The position numbers were made by a program, and so were the translations under genes. The notes under the pieces are model-generated. The model saw only the letters and a list, made by a program, of their open reading frames with translations. It made no database searches and had not been told where the DNA came from. A stretch of 64,000 bases of DNA, taken from Sialis fuliginosa (taxonomy: Eukaryota; Arthropoda; Insecta; Megaloptera; Sialidae). This document shows, one piece after another, positions 5,540-54,200 of this stretch. The stretch covers positions 9,860,501-9,924,500 of the forward strand of contig OY540822.1 of assembly GCA_961205875.1 (NCBI GenBank). Direction: 5' to 3'. Positions within the stretch are counted from its first letter, which is position 1. Each line of letters starts with the position of its first letter.

Positions 5540-8500
5540 TTACTCAATTTTTTCGTACATATTGGTTATTGAGTTCCAAATAGTTCCCAAGTTGTTTGCA
5601 TATTTTGCTTTGAGTTCTTTTTGGTATGAATCCTTCGTTTCCTAAAACAAATAAGAAAAAAATTTAGAAATTACGAGTTAGTATTACAAAAAAGAACATA
5701 CAAACATTGTAATTCTTTTCTAAATTTGATATCTGCTTTCTCAAATTAATTTCAATTAATTGTAATTCGGACTCCCGTTTTTTTAGCGAAGTTATTTCAC
5801 TTTTATTTTCAGTGATTTCCACTTCAAGTTCCACTATCTTATTACAAGTCTTTATTATTGAGTGTTTTGAGAACTCTATTTGTTTCAAATAAAACAATTC
5901 TTTATCTTTAAGTGTTGCGAGTTCATGACTCAAAATGGAAACGGTGTTTCTTAAGCCTCCTAATTCTTCAGTCCACGCTTTTAAAACATCTGCAAATTTA
6001 TCACGATCGCATTCAATTATCTTTTTTAAATCGATTAGTTCATGGCCACGTTCAATAAAACTCCTCATTTCATTAGTTCGCCTCATCTCAAATCGTTTCA
6101 TCATATCCTTGTAATTACTTTTCAAATTTTTGAATATTGTTTGTAGTTGGAATTTCTTTGGACAGCGTTCGATGTGCTTTTCAATTGTAGAATACGTGTT
6201 TGAAAACAATTTGTTTAGTTCTTGAATTATTTCAAAGAAATAATCGTGTTGCGGTTTATCGTCATTGTCGTCGACGGTGTTTGTATTTAAAGATGCGCTT
6301 GACACTTCAACCAGATTTCCTGCAACTGACGAATTCTGTTCGACGTTTTCTTTGTTTTCTTCAGTCATGGAAAAATCGGATAAGATCTTTTTCACTGACA
6401 TTTTTGCTATAACAAATTAGCGTTAATTTTAAATAATTATTTAAAAAATCAAAATATTCTAACCATTCTGAATTTTGTCAAAAACAGAAGTCCCGATTTC
6501 GGAAATGCAGTCTTCTACGGAATGCTCTGAACTTTTATTCTGTTGGTAAGCATCATATGCTGTTTTTAAATCGTTTATTATTTTACTGAAACTTTCTTCT
6601 AAGTCAGTGTAGTCCTTCAACAGTTTTGCAAAACTTTCAGAATGCTGGACTTGAGTATTGGTTTGCACTTTACTTTCATTTCTCGATGTATTTAGAACAC
6701 TTTCGTTTTTTTCTTGTAAAAGTCTCGAATTTGGTGAATTATTTGGCTTAAAATGTAAAAAAAATGTTTAGATACATAAACTTTTTTTTAACCCTTTGCG
6801 GTCCTATGTATATATTTTAAAATCTGTATAAAATGTGACAATACTAGGAATTGAATTTTTTAAATGTAAATTTGTGAAATTATTCATCAGGACCACAAAG
6901 GGTTAAATATCTTATTCAAATTACCATTAATTTGTTGGCCATGGCTATATTTTGAGATAACTCATTTTTCATAACTTGTTCCAATTTACAATTTTCAATT
7001 TTCAGCGTCTTCGCTTCCCCTATAAGTTTCCTGATTCGTGTTTCTTTTAAAAAGTTTTCATTTCTCAAATATTCAGCAATCGCTGTTTTCTGTAAAAAAT
7101 ACACATGTCAGTAGATGATCATATTACATAAAAGATAATTTTAGTTATACCTCATGTAACATATGTTTAAAAACATCGGACTGATTCAGCATCGCTGCGT
7201 TACTGCCTTCTAATATTGCATTTCGGTTCCTTAAATCCATATATTGACATCTTACAGAACTTAGTTCCATAGTTAGATCATCTATTTGATCATCCTGTTA
7301 ATTAAACATCAAATTATATTTTATTATGAATAGGTACTTGTTGATTATCCTCCCGCAAATATAAACATAGACTATTAAGTGTATAAGCTGAACTTTAGAA
7401 ATGTCAATTTCATCAGTTAAAAATTATTTTAAGACAATGGTTTTAGGTCAAAAAGGCTCATAATTAATATTTGCTTACCTGACGATGGCTAAAAGCATTT
7501 GCTTTAAAGTTATCTATTAAAATTTTCAAGCGTTTTATTTCGAGATCATAATTGGCACTTCTACTTCGTAGATTTTCAATAGTACTTGTCATGTCGTCTA
7601 CTTCTTTGACATGATTCTCTTGAAGTATTTTAAACTCGTTATCTTTGGCTTGGTTTTCTTTAAGAAGTTGAACGTTCTGAAATAGAGCAAGTTATAATTA
7701 AAAATTTCAGTAAGAGTAAATAAACTTACTGTTTCCTGTAAGTATTGTATATTTGATCTAAGACTATTTATTTCTTCTATTTCTAAGGAGAGTTTGTTAT
7801 TTGATTCGGTAAGAGATGAAATTTGTAATTTCAGATCTCTAATTTCATTTTCGTGTTTATCTTTTGTTGAAATCAGTTCTTTTTCAAGCTTTTCCTTTTT
7901 GTTTAAGAGTTCAGTTTTTTCTTGACTCTGAAATATTATCAACAGTTAGATGTATACGACTTAAATCTTATATTTCTTACTTACGATGAGATATATATCT
8001 GATTTTAATCTTTCGATTTCTAACTTCTGTTCTTCTTCATTTGAGGTAGATTTTAAATACTTTTGTTGTATTTCTATAAGGAATTTTTGATTTCCTTGCA
8101 GTTCTTTAATGAGCTAAAAAAATTATTAAATCAATTCATTGCTCAGTTATACAAAAAAGTTGGTTAGAGTAAAATATCAGGGTACATGAAAAAGTAAAAT
8201 TACTGCTAAACGTATCTTCGCCACAATGAACTGTCATTTTTAAATTTAAAATTATCAAAATGTTGGATATTTTTATGTTACACAATATTTGTACTCCAAT
8301 ATCTCACTTTTACCAAAATATTTCTTACGGAATCTTTTTCCGAAACAATTTTTAGTAATTGATTGTTCTCGGAAATTAAATTTTGTACCCGTGCAGAATT
8401 TTCAGGGACTGGAAAAGAAAATTTTAAATTATAAGGTATTCATTTTTACATAGTCATTCTCTTATACAATACAAAAACAACAATCAAAATGCAGTTATTA

Positions 8501-8730
8501 CCGGAATTGTGTTCATATTCAGTCTGAATCGCTATATTATTATTGGACATTAAATTACTGTTATCGACCGTTTCGTTTGTAACCGAATCATCATCGTAAC
8601 CAAAGTCGCTCATGTTGGAAATGAGGTCTTTTAGTTCTGCATCCCTACGAGCAACATCCTCCAAATCATAGTCATCACTGTTTAATATTTCTATGTTATT
8701 GCTTTTTCCTAAATCCTCAGTTGGTTCCAT
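5540..8730 (-). CDS. coiled-coil protein of unknown function
   Basis: Ten exons on the minus strand: 8730-8502, 8408-8329, 8113-7985, 7927-7730, 7676-7479, 7294-7151, 7089-6925, 6746-6464, 6406-5706, 5641-5540. All phases join, giving 742 residues. The first ~75 residues are acidic and Asp/Asn-rich. Most of the rest (about 85-430 and 530-740) has heptad-like Leu/Ile/Lys/Glu composition typical of long coiled coils, with a Ser/Asn-rich linker between. There is no motor head, signal peptide, membrane segment or recognisable enzyme domain. The ninth exon also contains an ATG (6401) that could start a shorter isoform. I do not recognise the family; rapidly evolving centrosomal or kinetochore proteins look like this, but that is a guess from composition only. 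The donor chosen at 5705 (GTTTGT) rather than 5701 is forced by phase. Confidence 0.85.
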
Positions 8731-9631
8731 TATAATGAAATTTAACTAATAAAATAAAGTAACAATAACAATATTATTTTAAATAACCTACATATATATA
8801 TTGTACTGTGCATACTTTTTAAAGGATAAAATAACTAAATCACTGTCTACTTTGACTAAAGATTAAAGATTACGTATTAATAATATTTAAATGTTTTAAT
8901 AAATCACATCGCACGTACTATGTGCCGGTAAAATAAAAAATTTAATTGCTATCAATCACAATGAAGTTAGCTCATATTTAATGACTATCAAATGGCCAGT
9001 ACCAATGTAACGATATTATCGAGATTTATTTCAATAAAAATCAAAACAATTTGTCAATATTACTTATTTGAATAAATAATAGTATAATAAAATATATAAA
9101 AAATAGATGCCCGCGACTTCGCCCGCGTTGAATAATTTTTTATGTTGACAGCACAAATAATATTTTAAAACAGTAGATAAAATAATAAAAAAAATTTTTT
9201 TTTAGCTTTTTATTTATTATATATAGAAAATCGTAAATATCTCGGCTCCTATGCGAGACAAGGGGTTGATTTAGTCTTTATTATCACTTAAAGACTAAAA
9301 CAAAACCAAAAAGTTAATTTTCTATGTAATAATCAATATAAAAAACTCAACAACAAAATTTTAAATTAAATTAATTAGAGAAATATTCTCATCACAGACT
9401 GACGCGTAAAACTTCATCGAGATATTTTATATCTATCAATATTTTTTAATAGTATTTTTATCAATGAATTTAAAATTAAAAGAAAATTTCCTCGACTAAA
9501 TGATTACAATCATTCAAATGACCCGCACGGTATTTTATATGCTGCTTAAAGTCACAGATTTCTAGCTTACCGGCTACGAGTGCGCTTTGGTTTGGCGTCG
9601 CGACGTACGGAAATTATAACGTTTCCGTTAA
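8731..9631. other. 5' flank between the divergent coiled-coil gene and the tandem array
   Basis: AT-rich apart from a more GC-rich patch at about 9520-9650 with several CpG dinucleotides (for example GGCGTCGCGACGTACGG), which could be promoter DNA for transcription towards the MFSD10-like gene. The RTE-like fragment at 9107-9300 lies inside. No coding exon. Confidence 0.4.
9107..9300 (+). mobile_element. RTE-like LINE 3' fragment
   Basis: Starts GCCCGCGACTTCGCCCGCG, a string I associate with insect RTE-type LINE 3' regions, followed by TTTATGTTGACAGCACAAAT which is repeated in inverse orientation at about 5360-5395. It decays into AT-rich DNA near 9300; the right boundary is approximate. Confidence 0.45.
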
Positions 9632-12600
9632 ACCGACGCCGTACTATTACTTTATTTGAAACACATCATCGGTGGGTGAAGAGATAACTTTTTATTTGAG
9701 TTTTTATTAGGTAAGTACATTTATAATTTATATTATTTACTAGAATTGTTCCTTAGATGCAGCAAACTATCTGTTACTAAAGATGTCAACTTAATTTAAT
9801 TGTTAATAAAAATTTTTTACAGTTTGGAATTTTAGCTGAAAAAACGTGATTCCATTATTAATTATGTTATTTATGTGTTTTCTTTACATGTTATTGATAA
9901 AAGACGGTCTTCAAAGTTAAATATTTGTTTTAAAGTCGATGGTCTATTTATTTATCCAATTTTTAAATTTTATACTAATTTTTTTATGACTTTTTTAATT
10001 ATTAAATTATAATAATTGAAAAAAATGTTTCCATTTTAATTCTTGGAAACGACTTCCGATTTTTATTAATATTTCTGTTAAACCGACGCCATAGCATTAC
10101 TTTATTTGCAATCTTTGTCGGTGGGTGAGGAGAGATCTTTTATTTGAGTTTTTATTAGGTAAGTGCATTTATAATTAGTTATTATTTGTTTAAATTGTTC
10201 CTTAGGTGCAGTAGATCATCTATAAATGAAGGTGTCGACTTATTTTATTGTTAATAACATTTTTTTTAGAGTTTATGTTTTTTACAGTTTGGTGTTAGAG
10301 CTGAAAAACGTGGTTCCGTTATTTATGTGTTTTTTTACATGTTAATTATAAAAGTCTGTCTTCAAAGTTAAAATATTTGTTTTAAAGTCGATGGTCTGTT
10401 TATTTATCGCATATTTAACTTTTATAGTAATTTTTATTATATATTCGACTTTTTAATTATTAAATTATAATAATTTTAAAAAAATGTTGCCATTTTAATT
10501 TTTCGTAACGACTTCCGATTTTTGTTCATATTTCTGAAAAACCGACGCCATAACATTACTTTATTTGCATCCATTGTCGGTGTGTGAGGAGAGACCTTTT
10601 TATTTGTGTTTTTATTAGGTAAGTGCATTTATAATTAGTTATTATTTGTTTAAATTGTTCCTTAGGTGCAGTATATGATCTATAAATGAAGATGTCGACT
10701 TATTTTATTGTTAATAACATTTTTTTAGAGTTTATGTTTTTTACAGTTTGGTGTTAGAGCTGAAAAACGTGGTCCCATTATTAATTTTGTTATTTATGTG
10801 TTTTTTTACATGTTATTTGTAAAATACTGTCTTCAAAGTTAAAATATTTGTTTTAAAGTCGATATTGTCTATTTATTTATCCAATTTTTTACTCTTATAG
10901 TAATTTTTATTATATATTCGACTTTTTAATTATTAAATTATAATAATTTTTTAAAAATGTTGCCATTTTAATTTTTCGTAACGACTTCCGATTTTTGTTC
11001 ATATTTCTGAAAAACCGACGCCATAGCATTACTTTAATTGTAACCAGTGTCGGTGGGTGAGGAGTGATCTTATTATTTGAGTTTTTATTAGGTAAGTGCA
11101 TTTATAATTAGTTATTATTTGTTTAAATTGTTCCTTAGGTGCAGTAGATGATGTATAAATGAAGGTGTCGACTTATTTTATTGTTAATAACATTTTTTTA
11201 GAGTTTATGTTTTTTACAGTTTGGTGTTAGAGCTGAAAAACGTGGTCCCATTATTAATTTTGTTATTTATGTGTTTTTTTACATGTTATTTGTAAAAGAC
11301 TGTCTTCAAAGTTAAAATATTTGTTTTAAAGTCGATATTGTCTATTTATTTAGCCAATTTTTTACTCTTATAGTAATTTTTATTATATATTCGACTTTTT
11401 AATTATTAAATTATAATAGTTTTAAAAAAATGTCGCCATTTTAATTTTTCGTAACGACTTCCGATTTTTGTTCATATTTCTGAAAAACCGACGCCATAGC
11501 ATTACTTTAATTGTAACCAGTGTCGGTGGGTGAGGAGAGATCTTATTATTTGAGTTTTTATTAGGTAAGTGCATTTATAATTAGTTATTATTTGTTTAAA
11601 ATGTTCCTTAGGTGCAGTAGATCATCTATAAATGAAGATGTCGACTTATTTTATTGTTAATAACATTTTTTTAGAGTTTATGTTTTTATAGTTTGGTGTT
11701 AGAGCTGAAAAACGTGGTCCCATTATTAATTTTGTTATTTATGTGTTTTTTTACATGTTATTTGTAAAAGACTGTCTTCAATGTAAAAATATTTGTCTTC
11801 AAGTCGATGGTAAAATTATTTATTCAATTTTTTATTATTATTGTCATTTTTTTAATTATTCAATTATAATAATTGAAAAAAAATGCCGCCATTTTAATTC
11901 CGGAAAACCGACGCCATATTATTAGTTTATTTGAAACAATTGTCGGTGCGTGAGGAGAGATCTTATTATTTGAGTTTTTATTAGGTAAGTGCATTTATAA
12001 TTAGTTATTATTTGTTTAAATTGTTCCTTAGGTGCAGTAGATCATTTATAAATGAAGATGTCGACTTATTTTATTGTTAATAACATTTTTTTAAAGTTTA
12101 TGTTTTTTACAGTTTGGTGTTAGAGCTGAAAAACGTGGTCCCATTATTAATTTTGTTATTTATGTGTTTTTTTACATGTTATTTGAAAAGACTGTCTTCA
12201 ATGTGAAAATATTTGTTTTCAAGTCGATGGTCAAATTATTTATTCAATTTTTTTAATTATTAAATTATAATAATTGAAAAAAAAATGCCGCCATTTTAAT
12301 TCCGGAAAACCGACGCCATATTATTAGTTTATTTGAAACAATTGTCGGTGCGTGAGGAGAGATCTTATTATTTGAGTTTTTATTGGGTGAGTGCAATTAT
12401 TATTAGTTATTATTTGTTTAAATTGTTCCTTAGGTGCAGTAGATGATGTATAAATGAAGGTGTCGACTTATTTTATTGTTAATAACATTTTTTTAGAGTT
12501 TATGTTTTTTACAGTTTGGTGTTAGAGCTGAAAAACGTGGTCCCATTATTAATTTTGTTATTTATGTGTTTTTTTTACATGTTATTTGTAAAAGACTGTC

Positions 12601-13290
12601 TTCAATGTGAAAATATTTGTCTTCAAGTCGATGGTAAAATTATTTATTCAATTTTTTATTATTATTGTCATTTTTTTAATTATTCAATTATAATAATTGA
12701 AAAAAAATGCCGCCATTTTAATTCCGGAAAACCGACGCCATATTATTAGTTTATTTGAAACAATTGTCGGTGCGTGAGGAGAGATCTTATTATTTGAGTT
12801 TTTATTAGGTAAGTGCATTTATAATTAGTTATTATTTGTTTAAATTGTTCCTTAGGTGCAGTAGATCATTTATAAATGAAGATGTCGACTTATTTTATTG
12901 TTAATAACATTTTTTTAGAGTTTATGTTTTTTACAGTTTGGTGTTAGAGCTGAAAAACGTGGTCCCATTATTAATTTTGTTATTTATGTGTTTTTTTACA
13001 TGTTATTTGTAAAAGACTGTCTTCAAAGTTAAAATATTTGTTTTCAAGTCGATGGTCAAATTATTTATTCAATTTTTTACTATTTTAGTCATTTTTTTAA
13101 TTATTAAATTATAATAATTAAAAAAAATGCCGCCATTTTAATTCCGGAAAACCGACGCCATATTGTTACTTTATTTGAAACCATTGCCGGTGGGAGAGGA
13201 GAGGACTTTTTATTTGAGTTTTTGTTAGGTAAATACAATTATAATTAATTTTCTATTTGCATAAATTATTCCTTAGGTGCAGTAGATGAT
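9632..13290 (+). repeat. nine-copy tandem array of 400-470 bp units with a conserved splice-donor block
   Basis: The anchor ACCGACGCC recurs at 9632, 10082, 10541, 11014, 11487, 11907, 12309, 12731 and 13151 (spacings 450, 459, 473, 473, 420, 402, 422, 420). About 75 bp after each anchor comes TTTTTATTAG|GTAAGT or a close variant (donor G at 9711, 10159, 10619, 11092, 11565, 11985, 12387 as GTGAGT, 12809, and 13229 as GTAAAT). Each full unit also has an acceptor-like TTTTTTACAG|TTTGG and a CCTTAGGTGCAG block. Units 6-9 share a deletion relative to units 3-5, so at least two sub-families exist. The array ends about 440 bp before the start codon of the MFSD10-like gene. It carries no credible protein. 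Confidence 0.9.
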
Positions 13291-13579
13291 GTACAAATGT
13301 AGGTTTCCATATATTTTCACTTTTTACAAATTTTAACAATTGAGAAACATGTGCTCAACAAAGAATCATAGCTAATATTTCGTGCACCCTCAAAGGAATT
13401 GTATCAGTGCCCGTATATTTATAAAAAATGTCTTAAGTTTGTTTTACTATCTTTTACATCCCCCCCTGGATTCTGCGCCACCAGTGAAGACTGATTTCGC
13501 CAACCCCTAGCTGTGCCTCTTGTCCGAAAAAAATGTTGATTTCGTTTTTTATTATATTAATTATTGTTTTTCTTTGCAG

Positions 13580-13641
13580 GTTTTTTTTTCGAGACATTTA
13601 AAATTTAATTTTAATTTTGAGGAATCATTTAATTACTAACG
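13580..13641 (+). other. putative non-coding 5' UTR exon of the MFSD10-like gene
   Basis: TTCTTTGCAG ends at 13579 and a consensus donor GTAAGT starts at 13642, enclosing 62 bp with no ATG that would matter. The next acceptor, TTTTACAG ending at 13704, opens the exon containing the start codon at 13730. A first exon from the tandem array could splice here. Inference from splice signals only. Confidence 0.45.
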
Positions 13642-13729
13642 GTAAGTTCAATTTAGTTAATCGATAATTTCGATTGTTTTAATACAACAAAAATTCTTTT
13701 ACAGGAAGTACAATTTTTATTTTGTTAAC

Positions 13730-15357
13730 ATGGAGTCCCCTAGAAGAAAATGTCCACAAAATGCGATTTTTCCAATATTCGTCACACTTATGGTTGACTT
13801 AACATGTCTAAATATGATTCAACCGATTTTCCCAAACGTGGTCGAAAACTTCATAAAAATGGACAAGATTGGAATCCATACTAAGTTCTTTGATCTTCTG
13901 AGGCCCGTACAACAATATCTTAAAATAAATGATTCTAGAAACAATATGTTATTTGGGGGGATGTTAGTTGCTTTATTTAATTTTGCTCAGTTCCTCTCTT
14001 CACCCATCATAACAGCATTCAGCGACAAGTTTGGCCGTAAACCGTTTTTACTGTTCACAATGGTAAGATGACTGTTGATTTTGTACAGCGTAACAATCTT
14101 ATCTATGTTATGTTTCACAGACTGGTATTATGGCTTCATTCGCTCTCTGGGTCAATGCAGACACAATGATGCTATTCATCATATCGAGAATAATCGCAGG
14201 TGCCGGGAAAGCAAACATATCGCTGTGCATCGCTGCAGTTATAGATACGGCCAACAGATATAACCGACCAATGCTGATGGTACAATCGACTATCGGCATG
14301 CAATATCAACACAGCGAATACTGATCTTTATTATTTTTTATTTCAGTCGTACATTGGAATAGCGTTTGCGATCGGTTCAATCGCCGGTCCAATAATTGGA
14401 GCGATCTTCTCGCACAACTCTTTAAATCAAGGCGAATGGTTTCCGTACCCGGCGAGTACAGCTACCTGCTTGACATTAATGAACATATTATTCTGCATCT
14501 TCTTTCTTACAGAAACCTTGCCTAATGTAAGTTTGTAAAATTTTGTAAAACTCATTGTAGCATTTCTAATAATTGCATCTTCTCTTTAGACAAGACGAGC
14601 GGGTTTGTTTGCCAGCCTTGCAGAATCTAAAGAATATTTATATTTAAAAGACCTCTTCTGCTTCACCGCTGTGAGAAAGATTAGACCGAAGGACCTGATT
14701 GAAGTCAAATCACTGGGCTTTGTGTATTTTTTCTACCTAACTGTATTCAGTGGTCTTGAAATATCTCTTATTTTCATGCTGAAGGAACGTTTCGGTTTCT
14801 CTGCCATCATCTTGGGGTGCTACTTGAGCATATTAGGTAGTCAGAGTTAAAACTTGTCTCTGTTTGGTTGGTATTAAACATTTATATATTTTCAGGATTG
14901 CTCGTATCGTTCATGCAGTCCTTTATATTTAACATAATACCCGAGGAAAAAATGAAGTCAGCAATCTCAGTAGGTCTTTCGATAATGATAATAAGTTACA
15001 TATCTATTGGTTTAGCCACAGCCTACCCTATGCTGTACTTTGGACTATTTTTATATGCAGCAGGTGAGTTACTCTGATCGATCGATTCATGAGTTGCTGT
15101 TAAAACAACTCCTTATTTTAGCTCAAGCTATCAGTGCGTCTTGCATCACTACGATTATTGCCGATTATGCAGCTGCAGATATGAATGCGACTGTTATGAT
15201 TGTGTTTAGATCTATCGGAAACCTCGGACGAGCTTGCGGACCTATTTTAATCTGCTCTATGTATTGGTGGCTTGGATCTAGAGCTGCATTCCTTTTCGGC
15301 GCCCTGGTGATGTTGATTCCGTTATACTCTATCCGAAAAACGTTTCCAGATGAATAA
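13730..15357 (+). CDS. major facilitator transporter, MFSD10/rtet-like
   Basis: Twelve-helix membrane transporter related to MFSD10 (tetracycline-transporter-like protein; rtet in Drosophila), thought to export organic anions; the substrate here is unknown. Six exons: 13730-14062, 14121-14279, 14347-14526, 14590-14836, 14896-15063, 15122-15357, total 440 residues, close to the family's ~450. The MFS motif A appears as FSDKFGRKP after helix 2 (about 14021-14047). SRIIAGAGKANISL marks helix 4, and KSLGFVYFFYLTVFSGLEISL in the second half is closest to MFSD10. The start codon is the first in its exon, with a 5' UTR exon upstream. The tandem array just upstream is the obvious candidate for its promoter region. 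Confidence 0.92.
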
Positions 15358-15729
15358 TTTTGATCACTGAATTTCTTAATGCAAAATTACATATTTGATT
15401 TTGTATGTTAATTTTATACTGTTTTGGCATTATTATAAAATTTCTGTCTATTAAATTTCTGTCATTAAAATTTATATATGTTTATATTAATGTTTTGTTT
15501 TATTTGAAACCGTTATTTAGTAAATAATTTGTTGTAATCATTTGTAAATGCTGGTGAGTCAATAATTATCTGCAATGCAGCTATAAATTTTATTTTAGGA
15601 AAAATAAACAGTCGTAGTTCAAGGGAAACAATAAAAAATTTATAAATAAGTTTTCATAGGTACAGATTTGACAAAGATTTAACATTATTTTATGCACAGA
15701 AGCGTAACTAGGAGTAAGCTAACCAGGCC
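15358..15729. other. 3' flank of the MFSD10-like gene
   Basis: AT-rich, with an ATTTTTATATATG-like stretch and no clear gene. Contains the presumed 3' UTR; no canonical AATAAA was seen close to the stop. Confidence 0.4.
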
Positions 15730-16190
15730 TCTGCTGGGAGCACCAGATCTAGGGGGCGGTAAAATGGGTGAAAATAGCATTACTAGAATTAAAAAGTGAT
15801 AGGCTGAGTAAAAAAAGGTCTTCAGAAATTGAAAGTAACTTTGAGGGGCGGTAAAATCTTGATAAGAACTAAAAAACCCGGTACCTGTTTGGAGCACCAG
15901 GTCTAGGGGCCGGTAAAATGGGTGAAAATAGCATTGCTAGAATTATAAAGTGACAGGCTGAGTAAAAAAAGGTCTTCAGAAATTGAAAGTAACTTTGAGG
16001 GGCGGTAAAATCTTGATAAGAACTAAAAAACCCGGTACCTGTTTGGAGCACCAGGTCTAGGGGCCGGTAAAATGGGTGAAAATAGCATTACTAGAATTAT
16101 AAAGTGACAGGCTGAGTAAAAAAAGGTCTTCAGAAATTGAAAGTAACTTTGAGGGCCGGGCAGCAAAATCATGATGAGAACTAAGAAAAC
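15730..16190 (+). repeat. 154-bp minisatellite, three copies
   Basis: The motif GGTAAAATGGGTGAAAATAG recurs at about 15758, 15911 and 16065, a period of 153-154 bp. Copies 2 and 3 are nearly identical; copy 1 has more changes and copy 3 diverges at its right end (about 16150). Minus-strand reading frames that share an identical N-terminus here are by-products of the repetition, not genes. Confidence 0.9.
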
Positions 16191-17618
16191 CGTCTTCGAT
16201 AATAACAGGGAGTGCTATTTTGAGAGTTTGCTGGGTAGATTCCAAGCACTGGTTATGTATTGTCGAACTAGAGGTCATAAATTGATAGGTTTTAGGGTTT
16301 AAAGAAAAGAGAACAGACATTTTCTCAGACTTATAGAGATTCTGCTGTAATAACATCATTTTTCATTGCATATCTTCCATCGTACAAGCTTCTTTATGCC
16401 TTCACAAAAGTTTTTTTTTTACTGATCAGAGTTACGCATGTGCCTCTATTTGGTTCTTGGTCCTAAGTAAATCGATGGCCCTTTAATGTTTCTTTGAGTG
16501 GGCTACACTTGAATATCAGCAGTATGTGGAGGAGCATTGATGCTTTTAGATTTTTGGGACTTGCAAGCTTTGGTGCTGGAACATTATTAAGAGAGGCGTT
16601 CAGCATTAAACATGAGCTTATTGGCAGGTCGAAGCCAATGTTTGTTCATGTACTGCTGCCCACTGTTCAAACTCAAACTATGCAGCCTTCTGAGAACGTA
16701 AAGAAGCTGTGCAAAGAGACGATGCTGAAAAATGATGTTACAAGTTTTCTATTTTTATTGAAATAGAGATAATAGCTGTATTGCAGATAGTTCTGTGGTA
16801 TTTAGTACATATATTTATACTTTGGCGCAATTTTATGATATATCCTGTTTTACCGACATGTCGGTTTACAGAAAATTCCAGAATATACAAGAACATTCTA
16901 GAATTGAAGTTTCTATATATATACGGTGCTGACCTCTATTACCTTTTTAGTCTTCTGTATAAATTCAACTGTTGAGTGTTGGCAAATTTTAAGTAAATTC
17001 TTGTGAAGTGTATATTCGACTAATTATCTATTTGATTGATCATAAAAGGTACATATAAATAATACACATCGTTACTCATTCGTGTAAATAAATATCATTG
17101 TTGATATGAAGTGTGTTTTGTAAATTTATTTTGTGACAATCACGAAGGTTAACGTATTCATATTTTATGTCATCTGTGTGTTATCCGACGTATATTTACA
17201 ATAAGTCGACTATTAAAACGACGTAATATAATAGGAGGCAATCTTCTATTAATAAAATTTATATTGTTATTAAATTTACATTGACATTTTGGTATATTGT
17301 ATATGCACACATATACTTATATGCATATATACAGAGTCAGAGATACATATATGAATGTGTGTGTGTATATATTATATATATTACGTGATAAATGATAGTG
17401 AATTTTGAAAGCATAGATTTTACTTATTTTAAAAGTAACGTGAATCAATTTCTTACGAATTATTAAAGAAATAACGCACTTTGTATTTGAAATATTAATG
17501 ATTTAAACTACATATCATATTTCATTTTGCTGATTCATTTGATTGTCAATTGTATACATATTTTTCGATCTATTAATATCTTTTTTGATGAGAAATATAG
17601 TGATTTAAATATTTTTAG
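16191..17618. other. gene-free stretch upstream of the Hsp40 gene
   Basis: No gene supported. Open frames at 16494-16766 and 16781-16975 have no recognisable domain and no flanking splice logic. A (TG)n/(TA)n microsatellite lies at about 17355-17385. An acceptor-like ATTTTTAG abuts the Hsp40 start codon, so a non-coding first exon of that gene probably sits somewhere in this stretch. Confidence 0.45.
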
Positions 17619-19480
17619 ATGGGGAAGGATTATTATTCTATCCTTGGTTTATCCAAAGGAGCTTCTGATGATGACATCAAGAAAGCTTACAGAAAGCTTG
17701 CTCTGAAATATCATCCCGACAAAAACAAAGCAGCAGGAGCCGAAGAAAGGTTCAAAGAAGTGGCTGAAGCTTACGAAGTGCTCAGTGACAAAAAGAAAAA
17801 GGATGTTTACGATAAGTTTGGCGAGGAAGGTTTGAAAGGAGGAGCGAGCAGCGGTGGAACTCCTGGAGGACAACAATTCTCCTACACTTTCCATGGCGAT
17901 CCTAAAGCCACCTTTGCACAGTTCTTTGGTTCAACGAATCCATTCCAAGATTTCTTCCCTTTCAGTAAGTTTATTTAAATACTTAATCATTGTCTGCAAA
18001 GTAATTGTGACATTTTATTGAAACATTTGCATTTTGTAGACAACCGTACATTTTTATTTGATGATGATGAAATGGATTCAGATTTGGATCCATTTGCTCA
18101 AATGCAAGCACCTAGACCAGGCAGCGCATTCCGTAGCCATTCATTCAATTTCCATGGCAGCCCGCAGCGGAAAGATAAAGTTCAAGACCCGCCAATAGAA
18201 CATGATCTTTATGTCTCTCTGGAAGACGTTGCCAAAGGTAAATATAAATGATAAACACATCACAATGAACGACTCGCTAATATCCGTGCATCATTGCAGG
18301 GTGTGTTAAGAAAATGAAAATTACGAGACGTGTTATTCAACCTGACGGCACATCAAAGAAAGAAGATAAAGTGTTGACAATATCAGTGAAACCTGGATGG
18401 AAGGCCGGAACACGCATCACTTTCCAAAAAGAAGGTGACCAAGCCAGAAACAAAATACCAGCTGATATCGTCTTCACCATCCGAGACAAACCTCACCCTG
18501 TATTCAAAAGAGATGGAAGCGATTTACGTTACACGGCAAATATTACCCTCAAACAGGTACTTGAAACTATTCTTACATTTCTATATTGTTTTGCTTGTTA
18601 TATTTATTATGAGTTATTGTTTTTTGGGTAATTAGGTACTCCATGGCATTTAGAGAAATTTCCACTTTGCAAATTTATAACTAAGAGAAGACTGTTATGT
18701 AGATTTTAAATATAATTTTCCTAATAAATATTGCTAATGAAAAAAGTGTCATTGTCAGAAAAACCGTTATTTCAATAAAAATATCAAACGTTTATATTTA
18801 TGACTAATTTTAGCAGTCAATGTTAATTTTGAAATAAATATTACTTATACGCTTATGAATAAAACGTAAATTCTTGGAACACAATATATTTGTTTTCATT
18901 TTTATAATAAATTCGTAATTTAATTATTATAATAAATATTAATTTAATTATTATTAATTATTATGGCGACTAAAATCCAATATTTAGATTACTTGTAGGT
19001 TTTTATAAACCCTTCCCCCCCATTTCGTAATGTGGGTGTTTGAAAGAATATAATAACAGTTATTCTGGAAGATTTCATTCAATGGAAGTCATAATACCAC
19101 GGGATTCAGTGATACCGTTTTTATATCGGGTGTACTTTGTAGTTTTTTTAAATGAAAAACAACGCATAAATTTTATAATACAAAAAAGCGTATGTTTTAA
19201 ATGTAGTTTAAAGTAGCAAAGCATTCTCTGAAGCATAGATCTGTTACAGGCTCTCTGTGGTTGTGATATCTACGTGCCGACGATGCCTGGTGAAAAGTTG
19301 CATTTAGATATGAGACAAGAAGTGATAAAACCGGCGACTGTCAAGCGACTGAAGGGTTACGGACTTCCAATGCCGAAGGAACCGTCTCGTAAAGGTGATT
19401 TGGTTATAGCTTTTGACATCAAGTTCCCTGATAGTCTGTCAAGAGATGCGAAAGATATTTTAAATGATCTACTGCCTTAA
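17619..19480 (+). CDS. DnaJ-1: DnaJ homolog, Hsp40 class B (DNAJB1/DNAJB4, DnaJ-1 type)
   Basis: Co-chaperone that delivers unfolded clients to Hsp70 and stimulates its ATPase in cytosol and nucleus. Four exons: 17619-17964, 18040-18237, 18300-18556, 19250-19480, giving 343 residues, as expected (about 340). The J domain occupies residues 4-68 with the HPD tripeptide at 32-34. A G/F-rich linker follows ([12 protein letters not shown]). There is no CxxCxGxG zinc finger, which places it in class B. The two C-terminal beta domains begin at [14 protein letters not shown] and end with [16 protein letters not shown]. The last intron is much longer (693 bp) than the others and AT-rich. The start codon directly follows a probable acceptor AG at 17617-17618, implying a spliced 5' UTR. 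Confidence 0.96.
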
Positions 19481-51200: not shown

Positions 51201-54200
51201 TAACCTGCAAATTTTTGAAACTTAAAACTTGGTTATCTCGAATTGAGAATTTTGGACTAGTACTGTTCTTCTTCTCACTGATTCAGTTGAATTAGGGCAG
51301 GTCCCCGTATTGAGAAAAATTTACAATCGATAATTCATAGTAAAACATGGAGAACTTGCAGTTAAACATAATGTAAGTTTTTGAAGCTACATGACTAAGC
51401 AAGGGTTAAAACAATTTTCTTGAATATTATAATTATTGTTGAAATAACTGGTTAGATTTGTTGTAGATTTGAATAAAAATGAAAATGATTAAATTATATG
51501 TTTTAAAAATTTTTGTTTATCCTGCAACGTATTGTTGGACTTAATCTCACTTTTTCCTAGAAAATTTTCAACTATTTAATAACAACATTACTTAGAAAAC
51601 AACAATCGGATTCACAATAAAAGTGAGGTTGATCGTTTGCTCTTGCCTTCAATGTTTTGATGTAATGCTTAGTAATAATAAAATACAACTGCTTTTCATG
51701 TTTCCTTGTTGTAAAACATTTTATATGTATTTCATAAACAATTACGGTGAGGTATTTCATATATTAATATGAAACATAAAATTTCAAGTTAAATATGTAA
51801 CAGATATAAACTGATAAACGTATAAAAATTAATCATCGATTGCTTACATATTTTAGATAATGACAGCAACAGTTGAAACTGTATCTGAACAATTGGACTT
51901 GGCTGCAATTATACCTACAGAAAAAGTTGTTTCTGCAGTCGCCAGAGCAATTACATTGTCAGAAACTGACGTTGGTAAGTATTCAAATTTATTATTTTAT
52001 TTATAGAGTTATGCGTTTATATATACACAGGTTTGTTTGTAATTTATTTATAATATAATTTTATTATAAATAAACACATAATTATTTGCATTCTTTTATC
52101 ATAAATTTAAGTGAAATATATGCTTGGGTGTGTAAAAAATACGTTAGTTAGTTCAATTTTAAGATGTGCCGCAAAGGAGGTCCTGTTTCCTATTTAAATA
52201 ACATGGAAAAATGATTCTTTAGTACTAAAATTGATATTACTGATTCATGATAACTGATGAAAAATTTTTAAGGGCATCATTTTGTAGAAGATAAAAGTGT
52301 CTACAAAGCAGGGCTGTGGAGTCGGAGTCGGAGTTTTAGTAATTTTGAGTGGAGTCGGAGTCGGTAAAAAGGTACCGACTCCGACTCCTTTAATTAAATA
52401 ATGATTTTTTACTTTTTTATTAATTATTTTTTGTTTGTTTTGAATTTTGAAGTACAATGAATTGAAATTTTCAATTACGACCGGAACCAGAATCACCGGA
52501 ATTCACACAAAAAATTCTGCCCGGAAATGGAATTTTTTCATAAAAATTCTATATGAATTAATTTTAACAATTAAATAATATAAATACCTATGTACATTTT
52601 TTACCTACATAGGTTGTATCTTTTTATATCAACACAAGAAAATAATATTATTTGAAATGGTATTTCTTATGTAAATAGTATGAAGTACATTACATTATAC
52701 GAAATTGTCTCTTCTGCATTTCCGTAATTTTCGCAGCTTCTTTTCGATCATATAAATTACGTGCCTAAACAGCTATTGAAGGGGTAAAAACCATCCTCAA
52801 AATTTGAATTTTAAATACAAATTTATATGTTATTAATTCATGTTACCTTGGATACAAATGCAACTAAATTCAAATTGTTAAATTAGTTATTCTACGAATT
52901 AGGCCATTATAAAACTAATATAAATTATACAAAGGTGAGTTTTATTTCTGACAAATCCCATTGCAATTTTTCATATACATATTAAAAATTATTTAAAAAG
53001 ATATTAAAGAACATGGAAGTCATGTATGGTCAGGGCTTCGAACCGGAACTGAACCGAAAACCGGAAAAACTGTTATTTTTTGCCGGAACGAAAACCTGAA
53101 CCGAACCGAAAAAAAATACGGTTTTCGGTTCGATACATGCTAAAATATGCGCGTTAACATGATCTTACTTTCGACTTGAATTGTCGTTCAGTTGTCATTA
53201 ACGCAACACGTCTTATACGTTTTGGGTATTCGCTCTTATATTCTTGGGTCACTTACTAGTCAACTAGTCACTACCATCCATACTAAGTATTAATTTTTTT
53301 AATTGTTTTCTTTATTTCATTCATTAATACAGTGAAACGCCGTTTTTGAAGAGACTGACGGGAAAAAAACATAATTAGAGGGAAAACGACAAAACGTATA
53401 GTTTTAATAAAAGAGATCATGAAATGAAAACATACACTTAAATAAAAACAATGATACGCCAATGCCTCATTTTAAAATTCGTTACAAGCTTCAATAGAAT
53501 CATTTAAAAAATATATTTGCAATAATCACTTATTTTAAACAGTTATAATATACATCCTTAATATATATAAAGCTCAACGTCTCTCTGTCTGTCTGTCTGT
53601 CCGTTAGTTACCTTATCACTCGAGAACCACTTATCCGATTTACGTGTTTTTTTTAAATTCTCTGGCCAGGTTATAGGCTATATTTTTTTACGTTAGGTAA
53701 CATAACAATTTCTTAATAATAGCCGAAGGCGGTCTCGAAGGTCTTCGGGCATTAGATAGTCTTAAAGATAATGGTGTAAGCTATATTTAAAAAAAAACTG
53801 GAGTCTCCTCGATCGCGCCAAGCTGACATATTAACTATTCAACTTATTTGTTAAATTTTCAATTTAAATTTCTTAATAATAGCCGAAGGAGCATACGAAG
53901 GTCTTCGGGCATTAGATAGTCTTAAAGATAATGGTGTTAGCTATATTTAAAAAAAAAACTGGAGTCTCCTCGATCGCCCCAAGCTGACATATTAACTATT
54001 CAACTTATTTGTTAAATTTTCAATTTAAATTTCTTAATAATAGCCGAAGGAGCATACGAAGGTCTTCGGGCATTAGATAGTCTTAATATAAGTAAATTAA
54101 AAATTCACGTAATGGCGACGAAATGCTTTGTGCTAGCTTTTTGTACCATAAAGAGTCGGAGTCGGAGGTTTTTGTACCGACTCCACAGCCCTGCTACAAA

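Follow-up and report, generated by a model that had tools for sequence, protein, structure and literature searches.

A tandem array upstream of an MFSD10-like gene in Sialis fuliginosa, with an inverted counterpart upstream of a BLM-like helicase gene: a possible copied promoter, first exon and intronic repeat

The array and the MFSD10-like gene

In a 64,000-nucleotide stretch of the genome of the megalopteran Sialis fuliginosa (contig OY540822.1, positions 9,860,501 to 9,924,500; hereafter the window, in whose numbering unprefixed positions are given), a tandem array lies upstream of an MFSD10-like gene, and a related array occurs at a second locus upstream of a BLM-like helicase gene. Repeat detection and unit alignment place the window array at 9632..13304 on the forward strand and confirm the nine units of 402-473 bp described in the initial annotation, as eight full units and a truncated one, each led by ACCGACGCC. 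The units start at 9632, 10082, 10541, 11014, 11487, 11907, 12309, 12731 and 13151, giving start-to-start spacings for the full units of 450, 459, 473, 473, 420, 402, 422 and 420 bp, and the truncated ninth unit stops at about 13304. In all nine, as had been reported, a block (here measured at 77-79 nt) is followed by a GT donor, which reads GTAAGT in seven units, GTGAGT in unit 7 and GTAAAT in unit 9; none of the blocks contains an ATG. The ACCGAC...GTCGGT pair, previously noted in most units, is exact in units 2-8 (seven of nine). The acceptor TTTTTTACAG had been ascribed to every unit, and the unit alignment finds it in seven of the eight full units, but unit 5 reads TTTTTATAG instead. Acceptor-like sites of 8.4 bits are present in six of the nine units; splice sites were scored throughout with matrices of textbook-like values, set by hand and not trained on S. 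fuliginosa, and with a cut-off of 7.5 bits.

The MFSD10-like gene (13730..15357, forward strand) was modelled by hand as six coding exons encoding 440 aa. The model matches the MFSD10 structure chain 6s4m_A at 209 bits (E 8.4e-61), the runner-up chain scoring 26 bits, and the Pfam domain MFS_1 was found on its first 307 aa. The further splice sites that had been proposed in its 5' untranslated region (UTR) were recovered, and they outline two putative forward-strand exons. Exon 2 (13580..13641) would be non-coding; it contains no ATG and is bounded by an acceptor of 13.4 bits and a donor of 11.2 bits. Exon 3 (13705..14062) would carry the start codon at 13730, and is preceded by an acceptor-like TTCTTTTACAG that was read by eye and falls below the cut-off. 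The acceptor at 13580 is very strong: in 120,000 strand-bases of the neighbouring genome, one site scored equally high. Just 3' of the gene, at 15737-16159, there is a tandem repeat with a 154-bp period (2.7 copies, 97% matches).

Upstream of these exons, we infer the start of a putative non-coding exon 1 (9565..9710, forward strand), which is CpG-rich, lacks an ATG and ends at the GTAAGT donor of unit 1. The putative 5'-UTR intron that would follow (9711..13579, forward strand; donor 10.8 bits, acceptor 13.4 bits) holds most of the array. The predicted spliced leader, formed by joining 9565-9710, 13580-13641 and 13705-13729, is 233 nt long and has no ATG, against an expectation of 3.7-4.0; random draws are free of ATG in 1.5-2.0% of cases (P 0.015-0.020). 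The same stretch left unspliced (9565-13729) contains 67 ATGs. Because this leader is without an ATG, and because the candidate promoter described below is single, the array most likely lies within a 5'-UTR intron of the MFSD10-like gene and would have grown from the end of exon 1 and the adjoining intron. A dispersed repeat is also present in the putative intron, at 13362-13520 between the array and exon 2, and resembles places on contigs C1, C2, C4 and C8.

The second locus and the shared flank

We searched the genome (392,097,322 bases in 20 contigs; match counts are lower bounds) with unit 1 and with most of unit 7, and obtained at least 16 and at least 15 matches, respectively. The unit matches listed make up two arrays, together with one weak 62-base AT-rich match on C2 that was set aside. 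The second array (C14:8551440-8554057) shares its contig with the window array but is on the opposite strand, 1.32 Mb away, and consists of six full units and one truncated unit. The initial annotation had allowed for the unit recurring as a dispersed satellite; one further locus does exist, but with two loci among the matches listed the unit is not dispersed.

The second array sits directly upstream of, and on the same strand as, the BLM-like gene (ATG at 8551073), a 90-aa helicase piece of which scores 128.6 bits against Bloom syndrome protein and 81.7 bits against the best chain not named Bloom. Each of the two arrays thus precedes a start codon and has the same orientation as that codon. 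The second array is flanked on its far side by a gene that encodes a DUF3402 domain, known from STRIP/FAM40 proteins; its stop was read by eye near L011:1281. A CpG-rich palindromic repeat (L011:600-820) lies between this gene and the second array. From the DUF3402 stop to the BLM ATG there are two CpG peaks of at least 9 per 120 bp, namely this repeat and the copy of the candidate promoter (13 per 120 bp). The putative first exon at this locus (158 nt) contains no ATG, for which chance alone gives 0.086. Another tandem repeat of the window (53707-54086; 161-bp period, 2.4 copies) has several partial matches within the 50 kb that surround the second locus.

Similarity between the two loci extends 5' of the array to about 9357 and then stops. 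This common flank (9357..9631, forward strand), a candidate promoter, occurs once per array, before unit 1 in both. Among the matches listed it is found at two places in the genome, inverted with respect to each other (C14:8554049-8554338, minus strand; C14:9869840-9870140, plus strand), which match at 91%; an alignment of the flank has 13 mismatches in 272 aligned bases. Within it, a 67-bp stretch (9508..9574, forward strand) is identical between the loci (P 0.033 under uniform divergence) and includes a TATA-like TATTTTATA at 9531-9539. Over the whole 64 kb, CpG counts peak at the flank, with 14 in each of two 120-bp windows (9521-9640 and 9561-9680), compared with a maximum of 7 in 120-bp windows starting at 9801-13180 and no more than 5 between the array and the MFSD10 ATG. 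When traces of the flank were sought at the unit ends, none of 14 comparisons was significant (P 0.06-0.59); the last few bases preceding ACCGACGCC (TTTC/TGTTAA) are similar between the flank and the unit ends. It therefore appears that there is a single candidate promoter, located 5' of unit 1, and the earlier proposal of a promoter in every unit is not upheld.

Between the loci, the flank (13/272) has diverged less than unit 1 (49/440; Fisher P 0.004) and less than unit 1 past its donor (37/361; P 0.011), and only 3 of 96 positions differ in 9480-9575 (P 0.026). This slower divergence and the unbroken 67-base identity that spans the TATA-like box suggest that a promoter was copied and serves two genes unrelated to each other. 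On the other side of the flank, minus-strand open frames at 5664-8730 resemble a coiled-coil gene in head-to-head arrangement with the MFSD10-like gene. Pfam gave no match for a 232-aa piece of these frames, and this putative gene might share the candidate promoter at 9357-9631.

Origin of the arrays and alternative explanations

Comparison of the units of the window array (A1-A9) with those of the second array (numbered from B1) gives 88.6% identity between A1 and B1 and 91.8% between A2 and B2. Furthermore, an insertion containing AGTTTATG is common to A2-A8 and, among the full units of the second array, to B2 only. Given these matches and the distribution of the insertion, an array with at least two types of unit probably predates the copying. 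Over the columns covered by A9, interior units of the window array are 93.2% alike, whereas A1 and A9 are 80.6% and 84.6% like them; in the second array, interior units are 97.3% alike and B1 is 80.6% like them. Divergent edges around a homogeneous interior are the pattern that unequal exchange leaves.

The explanation that we favour, at a probability of about 60%, is that a single promoter, first exon and 5'-UTR intron array were copied once, as a block, to the BLM-like gene. One promoter, at roughly 9480-9575, would drive transcription of a first exon that is non-coding and extends to the unit-1 donor (9710); splicing would join this exon to the one at 13580, and that in turn to the start-codon exon of the MFSD10-like gene. 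The 3' 79 nt of exon 1 and about 370 nt of intron would have been duplicated in tandem inside the intron and the copies homogenised by unequal exchange, so that each of the nine blocks would mainly be a passive copy of an exon end and its splice donor. Later, an inverted copy of promoter, exon 1 and array would have arisen at a distance of 1.32 Mb, in front of the BLM-like gene, which the promoter copy probably now serves. The MFSD10 locus is the likelier source, because its acceptor is far stronger; it is from this that we infer the direction of copying.

Several points weigh against this explanation. Four other gene starts (the PRA1-like one placed approximately) reach only 5-9 CpG per 120 bp, so the CpG peak is weak evidence on its own, and a count of 15 is found in the palindromic repeat near the second locus. 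Putative exon 1 (9576-9710) differs between the loci at 16 of 135 positions, no slower than the intron (P 0.63), and the flank could also have diverged slowly if only one promoter copy were constrained. Both the start of exon 1 and several of the tests, those on divergence included, were chosen post hoc, and the P values are uncorrected. At the BLM-like gene, the best acceptor (L010:5286; 10.0 bits, chance rate 0.31 per kb) leaves three upstream ATGs, the acceptor that leaves none (L010:5090) is weak at 5.9 bits, and the first donor of the second array, GTCAGT, is also weaker (7.7 bits).

Could the array instead yield repeated internal non-coding exons, each running from a TTTTTTACAG acceptor to the donor of the next unit, either as part of the 5' UTR or within a long non-coding RNA of its own? 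The GT donors in every unit and the 8.4-bit acceptor-like sites in six of nine would allow it, but such exons would add upstream ATGs from the 67 of the unspliced stretch, the acceptor columns are ordinary (36% of windows vary as little or less) and unit B1 has lost its acceptor AG; we regard this as unlikely. We are just as doubtful that the arrays are the internal tandem repeats of a transposable element or satellite unrelated to either gene. Tandem structure, divergent edge units and the 5' end of similarity near 9357 would all suit such an element. However, among the matches listed the flank is confined to two places and the units to two arrays (plus the weak C2 match), and both arrays point into a start codon.

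Somewhat less probable again is the model of the initial annotation, in which every unit would supply its own promoter and an alternative non-coding first exon spliced to 13580, with copy number tuning expression. The exon-like part of this proposal stands, in that a donor-ended, ATG-free block recurs in nine of nine units ahead of a strong common acceptor. Its other part does not appear to, since the promoter-like flank is not detectably repeated and the array has half the peak CpG count of the flank. Selection or homogenisation had also been proposed to act on the block, but the block, with a mean pairwise divergence of 0.108 among units 1-8, is no better conserved than the remainder (0.083), and 62% of block-sized windows diverge as little or less. 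The donor columns are not specially conserved either (76% of 9-column windows vary as little or less), and this uniform divergence across the unit counts against a multi-promoter array. In five of the six full units of the second array the block is shorter than the usual 77 nt, by 41 bases in B2 and by 27 in B3-B6. As block, donor and acceptor columns are without excess conservation and the block is shortened in the second array, selection on each copy is unsupported, and selection on the 75-bp block was rejected.

Three other candidates were set aside. The inverted pair was rejected as a conserved structure: exact in seven of nine window units, it is so in none of the seven second-array units, all of which lack GTCGGT. 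A known structured RNA was rejected, as Rfam gave nothing at gathering score in 8000-18000. An array of spliced-leader-like genes was considered but dropped, since B2-B6 have lost most of the block. The sequence TTTTTATTAG joined to GTAAGT is reminiscent of a recursive-splicing (ratchet) site, with an acceptor half below 7.5 bits, in a putative intron of about 3.9 kb. Least probable of all is a cassette of promoter, first exon and exon-end array that drives both the MFSD10-like and the BLM-like gene, with the number of donors or ratchet-like sites setting productive mRNA in both.

Related systems

Variable-first-exon clusters, such as those of the protocadherins and UGT1A, are known for coding first exons that each have a promoter of their own. 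The window array is like these clusters in having several donors upstream of one common acceptor, but differs in that no repeated promoter is apparent from its sequence. A study of Drosophila inversion breakpoints (PMC7584159) describes inverted duplications at the breakpoints and also considers genes parted from their promoters. Our two loci are similar in that they, too, form an inverted pair on a single chromosome, separated by 1.32 Mb and bounding a segment. However, the copied block described here carries a tandem array, and any inversion at these loci would be hypothetical. At PEP1 of Arabis alpina, a partial copy of the locus lies in tandem with the full gene (PMC3527215), whereas the repeats described here would cover only a non-coding exon end and intron. 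Among the papers listed by narrow literature searches, none treats this locus or tandem arrays of non-coding first-exon ends. A protein search in which 8000 candidates were scored gave 55 hits; those bearing an organism name were prokaryotic, and most bore none.

If the promoter copy does serve the BLM-like gene, this would be a clean natural case of an unrelated DNA-repair gene acquiring a promoter, a first exon and a growing intronic array by copying. It would also come with a built-in test, as start sites, splicing and copy number lend themselves to comparison between the loci. TTAGG-like repeats were also present in the sequence. More generally, the array would illustrate how the duplication of an intron may leave behind repeated donors that look like a regulatory cluster.
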